From positions 702,391-766,390 of the forward strand of contig PMTM01000006.1 of assembly GCA_003167365.1 (NCBI GenBank): a stretch of 64,000 bases of DNA. Reading direction: 5' to 3'. The position numbers were made by a program, and so were the translations under genes. Positions 33,282-37,008 of this stretch are shown here, one piece after another (position 1 is the stretch's first letter; each line of letters opens with the position of its first letter). Under the pieces are notes generated by a model. That model was not told where the DNA came from. It worked only from the letters and a program-made list of their open reading frames with translations, and ran no database searches. Source of the stretch: Spartobacteria bacterium (GTDB lineage: Bacteria > Verrucomicrobiota > Verrucomicrobiia > Chthoniobacterales > UBA10450).

Positions 33282-34625
33282 CTATTTCTTCATCAATTCG
33301 AGCACCGCAGTGGTCATACCGATTATACCCAGGCGAATTGTCGGCTCGGGCACCGGCGCGAACTTGCTCGAATGCAAACTCGGCAGCGGCACGCCAGTCT
33401 TTTTGCTCTCGGCCACCTTTGCCGGATCGACCGCGCCGATATGGAAATCGCAAGCCGGAATGGAATGATCCGGCAAGCTGTATTCGGAAAAATCCTCACC
33501 GCCCATGGTCGGATCGGTCGCTTCAACATTGTCTGCGCCCAGTGATTTCTTCCAAACGGCGACAAGACGTTTCGTTAGTTCCGGATTGTTATAAGTCGCG
33601 GGCGTAAACTCGTCTTTCAGTACATTGACAATAGGCGCGCGGTCAGCGGGAATTCCGGCGGCGGCAGCGCAACCTTGGGCAATCCGGTCGATCGCCGCCA
33701 GCACATGATCGCGCACATCGGCTTTGTAAGTGCGGACGGTGAGCTGCATCTTCACTTCATCGGGAATGATGTTGTGTTTCGTCCCGCCGTGAATCGATCC
33801 GACCGTGATCACGATCGGATCAATCGGGTTGTTCTCCCGGCTGGCAATGGTTTGCCAGGCGTTGATCATTTCCGCCGAGAGCACGATCGGGTCTTTCGTC
33901 TTATGCGGATACGCGCCATGGCCACCCACGCCGCGCACGGTCACGTCCACTGAATCGACATTCGCATAGGTGTAACCTTCGGTGACCCCGATGTGACCGG
34001 TTTGCATTTGTGCGTTGTCGTGAAATCCAAGCGCGAAATCCGGTTTAGGAAATCTTGTGTAAAGGCCATCGTTCAAGAGGGCACGGGCGCCGCCCAAGGC
34101 CTCTTCCGCCGGCTGACCGACAAAAACGATCGTGCCGCGCCATTGATCTTTCAGCTTCGCGAGCGAGCGCACCACGCCGACGAAGATCGACATGTGTGCG
34201 TCATGGCCACAGGCGTGCATGACGTGAACCTCGTCGCCCTTGTCATTTTTTGTCGTCACCGCGCTCGCGTAAGGTAAACCGGTTTGTTCTTCAACTGGCA
34301 GTGCATCCATGTCTGTGCGCACCAGTACCGTCGGTCCGGCGCCGTTTTTCATGAGACCGACAACACCGTAGCCCTTGAATTCCGGCCTCGGATACTTGCC
34401 GAGGTGATCCGTTACCTCACAACCGGCTGCACGTAATTCCTTCGCCACAATCGCCGAGGTGCGTTCTTCGTGTCCGGAAAGTTCAGGGTGACTGTGAATG
34501 TCCTTATAAATCGTGAGCAGCGACGGCAACTCGGCGTCCGCGAGCGACTGCGGCGTTTGCTGCGCGAAAGTGAAACCCGAAGTTAAGATCGACAATAGCA
34601 GAATTAACAACGAACGAATCTTCAT
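33282..34625 (-). CDS. Secreted M20D-type amidohydrolase (hippurate/aminoacylase-like)
   Basis: 447 residues from ATG 34625, which gives a clean signal peptide (IRSLLILLLSILTSGFTFAQ). Zinc-hydrolase motifs of the M20D group are intact: DIHSHPELSGHE, VRTDMDALPVEEQTGLPYAS, HVMHACGHDAHMS and VGQPAEEALGG, with a lid/dimerisation domain in the middle. Such enzymes cleave N-acyl amino acids or amide conjugates; here it is exported, probably to the periplasm. The substrate cannot be told. Single gene between two repeats. Confidence 0.87.
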   Translation of the reverse strand: MKIRSLLILLLSILTSGFTFAQQTPQSLADAELPSLLTIYKDIHSHPELSGHEERTSAIVAKELRAAGCEVTDHLGKYPRPEFKGYGVVGLMKNGAGPTVLVRTDMDALPVEEQTGLPYASAVTTKNDKGDEVHVMHACGHDAHMSIFVGVVRSLAKLKDQWRGTIVFVGQPAEEALGGARALLNDGLYTRFPKPDFALGFHDNAQMQTGHIGVTEGYTYANVDSVDVTVRGVGGHGAYPHKTKDPIVLSAEMINAWQTIASRENNPIDPIVITVGSIHGGTKHNIIPDEVKMQLTVRTYKADVRDHVLAAIDRIAQGCAAAAGIPADRAPIVNVLKDEFTPATYNNPELTKRLVAVWKKSLGADNVEATDPTMGGEDFSEYSLPDHSIPACDFHIGAVDPAKVAESKKTGVPLPSLHSSKFAPVPEPTIRLGIIGMTTAVLELMKK

Positions 34626-34677
34626 CCCGTCTTTATAGACTGTCATCCCGAGCGAAGTCGAGGGACCTCTCAATTGG

Positions 34678-34764
34678 TCCACAGATTACGCAGGTTTCCG
34701 CAGATTATTTCCAGGTGCCAAGATTCCGGGTTTTGAATCTGCGAAAATCTGCGCAATCTGTGGA
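34678..34764. repeat. Inverted-repeat (MITE-like) element upstream of polB
   Basis: Two 29-bp arms, 34678-34706 and 34736-34764, match as inverted repeats at 26 of 29 positions. Each is built from iterated CAGATT/GCAG motifs around a 29-bp centre. It ends 6 bp before the polymerase ATG, so its right arm occupies the ribosome-binding region. Related elements lie at 44339-44494 and 54923-54988. The segment 34640-34670 (GTCATCCCGAGCGAAGTCGA) also resembles a dispersed repeat I know from other genomes. Confidence 0.65.
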
Positions 34765-34770
34765 TGACTC

Positions 34771-37008
34771 ATGCCCTTCGAGGAAAACAAATTGCTCTTC
34801 GGCGCCGATTCGACGCCGCGGATCGTTGCGATTGAGCTTGGCGAGACCGGCACAATGCGCGTTTACCGTCGCGAAAACGATGGATCGACCGTCGCCGAGG
34901 TCGAGTCGTTTCACCCTTTCGTCTGGGTCGACAGCGACGTTGTCGATCTCGGCATTGAAGCCGAGAAGCTCGAAGGCGATCTCAAATACGGCTGGCGTAT
35001 CACCGGTGATAGCTGGAAGGAACTGATCGCGCTGCGCAATGGCTTGAAAAGCGCGGGACGCGATTATTTCGCGTTTACCGATCCGGTTCAGCATTATCTC
35101 ACTGCGACGGGACGGACGCTGTTCAAAGAATTGCCGTTCGAAGAATTGAAGCGCATGCAAGTGGAAGTGCTTTCATTCGCGAGCGGCGATGAACCCGTGG
35201 CGGGGGATGGCGTCCCCGGCGCCGCCGTCAGCGACCGCGGCCACAGCGATCATATCATGAGCATCGCCCTCTCCGATAATACCGGTTGGGAAGAGTTAAT
35301 CGTTGTCGATCCAAAGGACGTTGAGGAATCGGAACGCGGCGCGCTCAAGCGACTGACTGCTTTGATCAAAGAGCGCGACCCGGATGTGATCGAAGGTCAC
35401 AATCTATTCCGTTTCGATCTGCCGTATCTGGTCGCGCGAGCGAAGAAGGCGAAAACCAAACTCGACTGGGGACGGAGCGGTGGTTTTCTCCGATCGCGTC
35501 CGTCGCGGTTGCAGATCGCGGAGAAGACGATCGATTACCCAAAGTTTGCCATCGATGGCCGCCATTTCGTCGACACGTTTTTGCTCGCGCAATTTTACGA
35601 CGTCGGCATGCGGACGCTCCCGGGCTTTGAGCGCGTTGACGTAGCGCGGCATTTTGGATTTTGCGACGGCGAAGAACTATCGGCGCTCACTGGAAGAGAA
35701 TTGCAACGCGCTTACGTCGATGATTCCGAAACGTTTCGCCAGCGCGCGCTTTGCGCCGTGCGCGAAACCCGCGCGGTCGCCGAGCTGCTCAGTCCAAGCT
35801 ATTTCATCCAGGCGCAGATTTTTCCCTACAACTACCAGGACGTGATCGTGCGCGGCAACGCCACTCGCATCAACGCGCTTTTCCTGCGGGAATACTTCCG
35901 GCAGCGCCATTCCATTCCCGAGATGCCGATGGTGCGCGGTTTCGAAGGCGGCTACACCGATATTTTTTTCACCGGTGTCGCGCGCAACGTTTGGCATTGC
36001 GATGTCGCTTCGCTTTATCCATCGATCATGCTCCAGTTCGATTGCTTTCCAGTAACCGACCGGCTCCAGATCTTCCGGCATTTGCTCACCGATCTGCGCA
36101 CTTTCCGGCTCGAAGCGAAGGCGCAAATGCGCGTGGCGGAGAAAGAAAACAACCGCGCGCAGCACCGCCATTTTCACGCATTGCAAAACACGTTCAAGAT
36201 TCTCATCAACAGCTTTTACGGTTATCTCGGGTTCGCGCAGGGAAGCTTCGCCGATTTCGAAGCCGCCGCTCGCGTCACGCAGATCGGGCGCGATCTGTTG
36301 AAGAAAATGATCGACTGGCTCAACGCACAAGGCGCGCAAGTCATCGAGGTCGATACCGATGGCATCTATTTCGTGCCGCCGGCCAAGATCGACATCGACA
36401 AATTGCGCAGCGGCCTAGCCAAGGAATTGCCGCCTGGCATCGAAGTCGAATTCGATGAGCAGTTCGACGCCATGTTCAGTTACAAGGCCAAGAACTACGC
36501 GCTCCTCACCCACGACGGCGAGGTCGTTATCAAGGGTGGCGCACTCAAGTCGCGCGGACTGGAAAAATTCCAGCGCGTTTTCCTCGAGGAAATGATCCGG
36601 CTCCTCATGCAGGGAAAACCGGAGGCGATCGCAGATGTTCGAGAGAGATTCGAAAAGAAAATCCGCAACCGCGAATGGAACATCGACATGTTAATGAAGA
36701 CCGACACGCTCCAGGATTCGTTGGAGAAATATCGGCAAAAGATCGTCGGTTCCGCGCGCAACCGCGCCGCGGCTTACGAACTCGCGCTCGCCAGCGGCCG
36801 TAGTTACCGGCCGGGCGACCAGATTAGTTACTACATCACTGGCGCAGGCAAGAAAGTCGCCGCCTACGAAAGTGCCAAGCTCGCTTCAAACTTCGATCCG
36901 AAAAACCGCGACGAAAACGTCGATTACTACATCGCAAAGCTCGATGACCTGGTGAAGAAGTTCGCCATAATGATTCCAGCCCCCGAGCAGGAGACGCTAA
37001 AACTGTAG
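34771..37008 (+). CDS. polB: Family B DNA polymerase (Pol II-like) with degraded proofreading motifs
   Basis: 745 residues, about the Pol II length. Polymerase motifs are intact: motif A DVASLYPSIM (Asp about 411), motif B KILINSFYGYLGF, and motif C as VDTDGIYF, with DTD kept but Gly after it instead of Ser. The N-terminal exonuclease domain keeps Exo II (GHNLFRFDLPYL). Exo I reads MQVEVLSF where DIE is expected (about 129-136), and Exo III reads RALCAV where YxxxD is expected (about 326-330). Proofreading is therefore probably lost. Such a polymerase could act in repair or translesion synthesis. A hairpin repeat sits at its start codon. No polymerase-associated gene is adjacent. Confidence 0.85.
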   Translation: MPFEENKLLFGADSTPRIVAIELGETGTMRVYRRENDGSTVAEVESFHPFVWVDSDVVDLGIEAEKLEGDLKYGWRITGDSWKELIALRNGLKSAGRDYFAFTDPVQHYLTATGRTLFKELPFEELKRMQVEVLSFASGDEPVAGDGVPGAAVSDRGHSDHIMSIALSDNTGWEELIVVDPKDVEESERGALKRLTALIKERDPDVIEGHNLFRFDLPYLVARAKKAKTKLDWGRSGGFLRSRPSRLQIAEKTIDYPKFAIDGRHFVDTFLLAQFYDVGMRTLPGFERVDVARHFGFCDGEELSALTGRELQRAYVDDSETFRQRALCAVRETRAVAELLSPSYFIQAQIFPYNYQDVIVRGNATRINALFLREYFRQRHSIPEMPMVRGFEGGYTDIFFTGVARNVWHCDVASLYPSIMLQFDCFPVTDRLQIFRHLLTDLRTFRLEAKAQMRVAEKENNRAQHRHFHALQNTFKILINSFYGYLGFAQGSFADFEAAARVTQIGRDLLKKMIDWLNAQGAQVIEVDTDGIYFVPPAKIDIDKLRSGLAKELPPGIEVEFDEQFDAMFSYKAKNYALLTHDGEVVIKGGALKSRGLEKFQRVFLEEMIRLLMQGKPEAIADVRERFEKKIRNREWNIDMLMKTDTLQDSLEKYRQKIVGSARNRAAAYELALASGRSYRPGDQISYYITGAGKKVAAYESAKLASNFDPKNRDENVDYYIAKLDDLVKKFAIMIPAPEQETLKL

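Follow-up and report, generated by a model that had tools for sequence, protein, structure and literature searches.

Among the bacterial family B DNA polymerases (PolBs), G3 is the second largest group and is experimentally uncharacterised. A survey based on complete genomes, in its accessible text, attributes to G3 members a beta-clamp motif and conservation of both the exonuclease and the polymerase site (PMC12926913, Timinskas 2026). According to the available part of another study, a conserved motif C glutamate (ExDTDG) characterises the EpsilonN/G3 clade, Salinibacter phage PolBs are named as G3, and the Pol II-like clade has GWN at Exo II (PMC7544198, Kazlauskas 2020). Sulfolobus Dpo2, as described in the available part of its report, is without exonuclease activity, has robust polymerase activity and high fidelity on undamaged DNA, and is an efficient mismatch extender (PMC8764526). 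Our literature search, with supplementary files outside its scope, found no report of exonuclease loss in G3, including in the accessible text of PMC12926913 and PMC7544198.

Group assignment and domain architecture

We analysed the polB gene in a 64,000-nucleotide stretch of a Spartobacteria bacterium genome (contig PMTM01000006.1; hereafter the window), the features of which are collected in table 1. The encoded protein was the host genome's sole PF00136 match (G000, 3.13 Mb, 24 contigs), and its nearest named relatives belonged to Chthoniobacterales, in the 'Candidatus Udaeobacter' MAG lineage, with 80-86% identity.

Table 1. Positions of polB and its parts in the window
Feature	Position	Strand	Remark
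polB gene, 745 aa, predicted G3-type (Pol-epsilon-N-like) family B DNA polymerase, exonuclease site putatively inactivated	34771..37008	+	
N-terminal domain, residues ~15-120	34813..35130	+	AlphaFold2 model; kept in 59 family rows
3'-5' exonuclease-like (DEDDy) domain, residues ~121-345	35131..35805	+	Partial PF03104, model and fold match, omega 0.072
Exo I position, residues 132-134, E-V-L versus D-I-E	35164..35172	+	
Exo II position, residues 211-216 (N211, D216)	35401..35418	+	Retained in window PolB
Exo III position, residues 325-329, R-A-L-C-A versus Y-x-x-x-D	35743..35757	+	
Polymerase motif A, HCDVASLYPS	35998..36027	+	Catalytic D411
Polymerase motif B, KILINSFYG	36196..36222	+	K476/N480/Y483
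Polymerase motif C, VIEVDTDGIY	36343..36372	+	E526 (G3/EpsilonN group), D528, D530
C-terminal QETLKL, putative clamp-binding-like peptide, residues 740-745	36988..37005	+	

Pfam matched PF00136 at 2.3e-27 and PF03104 only over residues 185-273, so that Exo I and Exo III lay outside the Pfam match. Pfam, an AlphaFold2 model and full-length fold matches together indicated that the N-terminal, DnaQ-like exonuclease and polymerase domains are all present. The model matched Pyrobaculum PolB (5mdn; Z 32.0, rmsd 4.0 over 648), the Pol epsilon 1-528 fragment (6s1c; Z 27.9, rmsd 3.0 over 320) and E. coli Pol II (3maq; Z 27.4, rmsd 5.1 over 608); the model built as a control for the intact relative L093 was of too low quality to be compared (pLDDT 70.4, pTM 0.44).

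The protein had been described as Pol II-like in a sequence-only reading of the window, a label that we had to abandon: the NCBIfam Pol II models scored 91.4 bits against a 570-bit cut-off, and the EGHN at Exo II and EVDTDG at motif C of the window PolB replace GWN and the YGDTDS of E. coli Pol II, which excluded a Pol II (G1) identity. E526, the motif C glutamate of EpsilonN/G3, was found in 161/161 rows of the alignment, as were both D528 and D530, and PolB2/G2 identity was thus excluded as well. The best named relative was a Salinibacter phage PolB (36.5% over 96% of the query, E 2e-132). Motif C and similarity to named members place the window PolB, as a predicted member, in the G3 group; since its exonuclease site departs from the conserved one ascribed to G3, we treat it as a variant within the G3 lineage.

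Two further segments were compared among relatives. Of the 49 family rows that are full-length, 47 have a variable tail ending in a QExLxL-like peptide (QxxLx[L/F/M] type), which is consistent with clamp binding. Several family genomes also contained separate stretches of ~50 codons matching the C-terminal tail of PolB, apart from the full gene (66-83% identity, residues near 690-745; G004:C4:7700-7855, G025:C39:4031-4204, G021:C14:55280-55432 and G001:C67:30125-30277). For Tgo-Pol, the available part of the report states that lesion bypass required exonuclease inactivation plus a longer fingers loop (PMC4150786). The fingers segment comprised 42 residues in the window PolB and 43 in the intact relative L111, so that loop length separates no lost from intact rows; a longer, Pol zeta-like loop was rejected as a mark of exonuclease loss.

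The exonuclease site in the family and across Verrucomicrobiota

An alignment anchored on orthologues with intact DIE, NxxxxD and YxxxD motifs placed LKRMQVEVLSF on LRRMQxDIETF, so that VEVLS faces [LIV]DIET, and RALCAVRET on YALxDVRET. The replacements are D to E132 and E to L134 in Exo I, and Y to R325 and D to A329 in Exo III; three of the four catalytic exonuclease carboxylates are gone, together with the Exo III tyrosine, while N211 and D216 of Exo II are present. Both motif losses had been noticed and correctly placed by the sequence-only reading, and its statement that Exo II and the polymerase motifs are retained also held, with motifs A, B and C and the KNY residues intact. In the model the usual DEDD order is seen, with strand 128-136 containing Exo I, helix 212-226 carrying Exo II at its start and helix 320-350 containing Exo III; the positions of the lost residues fall within the exonuclease domain, the predicted fold of which appears to be kept without its catalytic site. 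E132 is the sole acid in strand 128-136, and a phmmer pairwise alignment to Pyrococcus Pol, shifted by the loss, set RET under MED and T333 at the catalytic Asp, with the Tyr absent; thus, we found no alternative alignment that restores the site.

Rows that were at least 99.5% identical were collapsed for residue counts and omega (161 of 198 retained), and L133, L134 and L152, whose ORFs are broken or partial, were left out of the orthologue alignment, as was L029; the genomes are mostly MAGs, and the relatives a partial sample. By protein search, 74 of the 83 genomes in the family have the gene, as do 30/30 of the near-complete ones (at least 90% complete, at most 5% contaminated). E132, R325 and C328 each occurred in 59/59 non-redundant family rows; these rows were chosen by E132 and R325, so that the fixation of those two is row selection, and every full-length family row of the alignments with orthologues carried both. 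Residue 134 was L (57) or I (2), and residue 329 was A (31) or G (28). In Exo II, D216 was present in 46 rows and lost in 13; at residue 211, N occurred in 36 rows, D in 22 and H in one. R288 of the family replaces a Leu that is invariant across the 86 intact G3 rows. Since the changes are shared by 59/59 family rows while all four catalytic carboxylates are present in 86/102 other G3 rows, chance or sequencing error behind them is ruled out. The nine polymerase-site residues (D411, K476, N480, Y483, E526, D528, D530, K574 and Y576) were invariant in 161/161 rows.

The median omega of 25 disjoint exonuclease-lost pairs was 0.065 for the N domain, 0.072 for Exo and 0.079 for Pol, and that of four intact pairs was 0.119, 0.086 and 0.068, respectively; these NG86 values are approximate, since many dS were near or above 1. 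The Exo value in the lost pairs indicated that constraint on the exonuclease domain has persisted beyond the loss of its catalytic residues, and we suggest that it may have a structural, DNA-holding or partition role.

The loss was observed beyond this family. Among 129 G3 rows, from which five non-G3 rows (L208-L211 and L217) had been excluded, 86 had all four carboxylates and 43 did not, namely the window PolB, 28 family rows and 14 others with differing replacements (for example GIQ, IHVET, LALLR, DLSVY, LAVEM and LSIKT). We counted seven exonuclease state changes on a polymerase-domain tree of 112 rows, and six on a 36-row tree of the order plus L101 (bootstrap range 5-6), where the starred branches alone force three. 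In the AU test on the 36-row tree, all lost rows as one clade were rejected (p 3e-57); sub-tests were weaker, with p 6e-5 for the lost rows without L101 and L115, 0.002 for f7 with L132 and genus g41, and 0.03 for L115 joined to the clade of the window PolB. A single shared origin of the loss within the order is thus rejected. The window family and L114 stand on one starred branch (95/91), with differing residues, and the loss in these two may therefore be shared. The direction from intact to lost rests on the intact state of most G3 rows, of the named G3 phage polymerase L223 and of E. coli Pol II. Both trees comprised Verrucomicrobiota rows only, G3-like rows outside the phylum being one phage and two plasmid examples, and the 79 distinct phylum loci were taken from 196 PolB-positive genomes, so that the loss count is a lower bound. 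On the tree, the exonuclease state changed at least seven times within Verrucomicrobiota, with different residues, and the apparent occurrence of several separate losses among relatives suggests a specialised repair or damage-bypass enzyme. Taken together, orthologue alignment, family fixation, repeated losses in the phylum and the predicted fold give good support to the earlier proposal of a putatively non-proofreading family B polymerase.

Two other groups of PolBs were observed in the phylum. In a separate genus-level group (L163, L171 and L213; family f29, genus g107), the exonuclease region of the G3 PolBs is shortened and degraded; the listed ORFs of this group are mostly ~650-690 aa, and three of them were read. 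In other families, L208-L210 (G568, G440 and G418) are a different PolB type with a YGDTDS motif C, the exonuclease motifs of which also fail to align to DIE/YxxxD, in a region where the alignment is unreliable.

Gene neighbourhood, regulation and other polymerases of the host

Upstream of polB lie an M20-type hydrolase gene on the opposite strand and ftsZ, both named from reading of the ORFs, which recur at 32 and 30 of 142 loci. No conserved downstream operon partner was found at these loci, where no downstream ORF family occurred in more than 18. A LexA-like box was found upstream of polB in 0/164 regions, and a relaxed pattern fitted 12/164; in the host's own genome, GTTCN4GAAC boxes lie just ahead of lexA and in the lexA-imuA interval (L221), and twice elsewhere in the same 10-kb stretch. 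SOS control of polB was rejected on these grounds, and its expression appears, by sequence, to lie outside the LexA regulon. With neither a LexA-like box nor a conserved operon partner, polB has no direct link to damage tolerance.

The polB promoter region is filled by a 29-bp imperfect inverted repeat (window 34678-34706 and 34736-34764; arms TCCACAGATT..CGCAGATT / AATCTGCG..ATCTGTGGA), the core of which gave 10 genome matches at up to 2 mismatches and the reversed control 0. A dispersed repeat, GTCATCCCGAGCGAAGTCGAGGGA (window 34642-34665; 6 genome matches at up to 2 mismatches, control 0), encodes the N-terminus RGPSTSLGMT of the M20-type ORF 33282-34682, the true start of which is probably the later MKIRSLL.

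The host genome contains a LexA (216-aa frame) with imuA-like and imuB-like ORFs next to it, as well as a DinB-type match and two DnaE frames of 1186 and 1060 aa; we take the ORFs beside lexA to be imuA and imuB and the second DnaE to be DnaE2-sized. Since two IMS-domain matches and two DnaE are present, polB appears to be no simple replacement, and its role as a stand-in for a missing Y-family or DnaE2 polymerase was rejected. The imuB-like ORF (L221 5608-6192, minus strand) is only 194 aa long, in a host that also has the 1060-aa second DnaE; the usual ImuB is far longer.

Possible function and comparison with known polymerases

We infer, with modest confidence, that the window PolB is an active, probably clamp-bound G3 polymerase with a dead but structurally kept exonuclease, most likely serving as an extender or gap filler. 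Its C-terminal peptide would probably tether it to the sliding clamp. With a dead exonuclease, it would be unable to excise a mispaired or lesion-opposed primer end, and, neither excising nor idling, it would most likely extend such ends or fill gaps past them, like Dpo2. Against this reading we counted E132 and D216, two acids still near the old metal site, a fingers loop no longer than in intact orthologues, the lack of a LexA-like box and of a conserved operon partner, and the DinB, lexA-imuA-imuB and second DnaE of the host. A broader proposal is offered only tentatively: Verrucomicrobiota G3 PolBs might be a Pol-epsilon-related bacterial counterpart to Pol zeta, acting as extenders that are clamp-bound and independent of LexA, with proofreading switched off independently at least seven times; in the Udaeobacter lineage, the old metal site would have been rebuilt as a conserved, inert primer-end holder (E132, L134, R288, R325 and C328, perhaps with an E132-R325 salt bridge).

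The near-universal occurrence of the gene, its apparent independence of LexA and the strong conservation of the polymerase domain would also fit an exonuclease-dead PolB that fills gaps or performs repair synthesis accurately on undamaged DNA, with proofreading in trans by another nuclease, as would the disrupted DnaQ-like domains described for many bacterial Pol I orthologues in the accessible text of PMC12926913; however, such a role leaves the repeated loss of the exonuclease alone unexplained, and we regard it as possible but rather doubtful. The sequence-only reading went on from the loss of intrinsic proofreading to an error-prone enzyme, but a true mutator that raises the spontaneous or stress-induced mutation rate is unlikely for a gene that evolves slowly and is both fixed and near-universal in its family, in a host with other candidate mutasome genes, and Dpo2, in the part of its report available, provides a precedent for exonuclease loss without low base-selection fidelity (PMC8764526).

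A residual or rebuilt exonuclease, with metal binding and cleavage by E132, D216 and the residues around them, is quite improbable. The change to E132 is conservative and found in 59/59 rows, and D216 in 46/59, but the Exo I Glu and the Exo III Asp and Tyr are all gone, R325 and, by sequence, R288 add positive charge, and E132 stays in the 13/59 rows without D216, so that its conservation is no tracker of a working metal site. An inactive protein or decaying gene is hardly credible: copies broken by one in-frame stop occur in some assemblies (G069, G032 and G107), but omega was ~0.07 in all domains, the full polymerase site was kept in 161/161 rows and the gene in 30/30 near-complete family genomes, and the pseudogene reading was ruled out by omega and conservation.

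In all, polB is a near-universal gene of a soil-bacterial family that, with several separate relatives, breaks the conserved-exonuclease rule of G3 while keeping the polymerase site. The natural, closely related intact and lost pairs provide a way to ask what purpose proofreading has for an accessory polymerase, and also bear on how an extender can arise from a replicase-type fold; the strong selection on the exonuclease fold after catalysis was lost raises the question of the domain's remaining role.

With bacterial G3 PolBs, the window PolB has in common the motif C Glu, the canonical N-Exo-Pol architecture and, probably, a clamp-like C-terminus, but the exonuclease site, conserved in G3 in the accessible description (PMC12926913), is lost. 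With E. coli Pol II it shares the status of a bacterial accessory PolB, the overall fold and a C-terminal clamp-type peptide (QLGLF in E. coli); in contrast, Pol II has DIE, GWN and YxxxD, proofreads and carries YGDTDS at motif C, and no LexA-like box precedes the window polB. Archaeal PolB2/Dpo2 and bacterial G2 likewise have Exo I and Exo III not conserved, and may be analogues as extenders; however, PolB2 lacks the first motif C Asp, which is present here, and sits with arCOG07300/RadA-like genes; among the 142 polB loci, no downstream ORF family is common to more than 18. Eukaryotic Pol zeta and Pol alpha are also B-family enzymes with an inactivated exonuclease domain kept in fold, as stated in the available text of PMC7544198, but differ by clade, multi-subunit make-up and metal-binding C-terminal domains.
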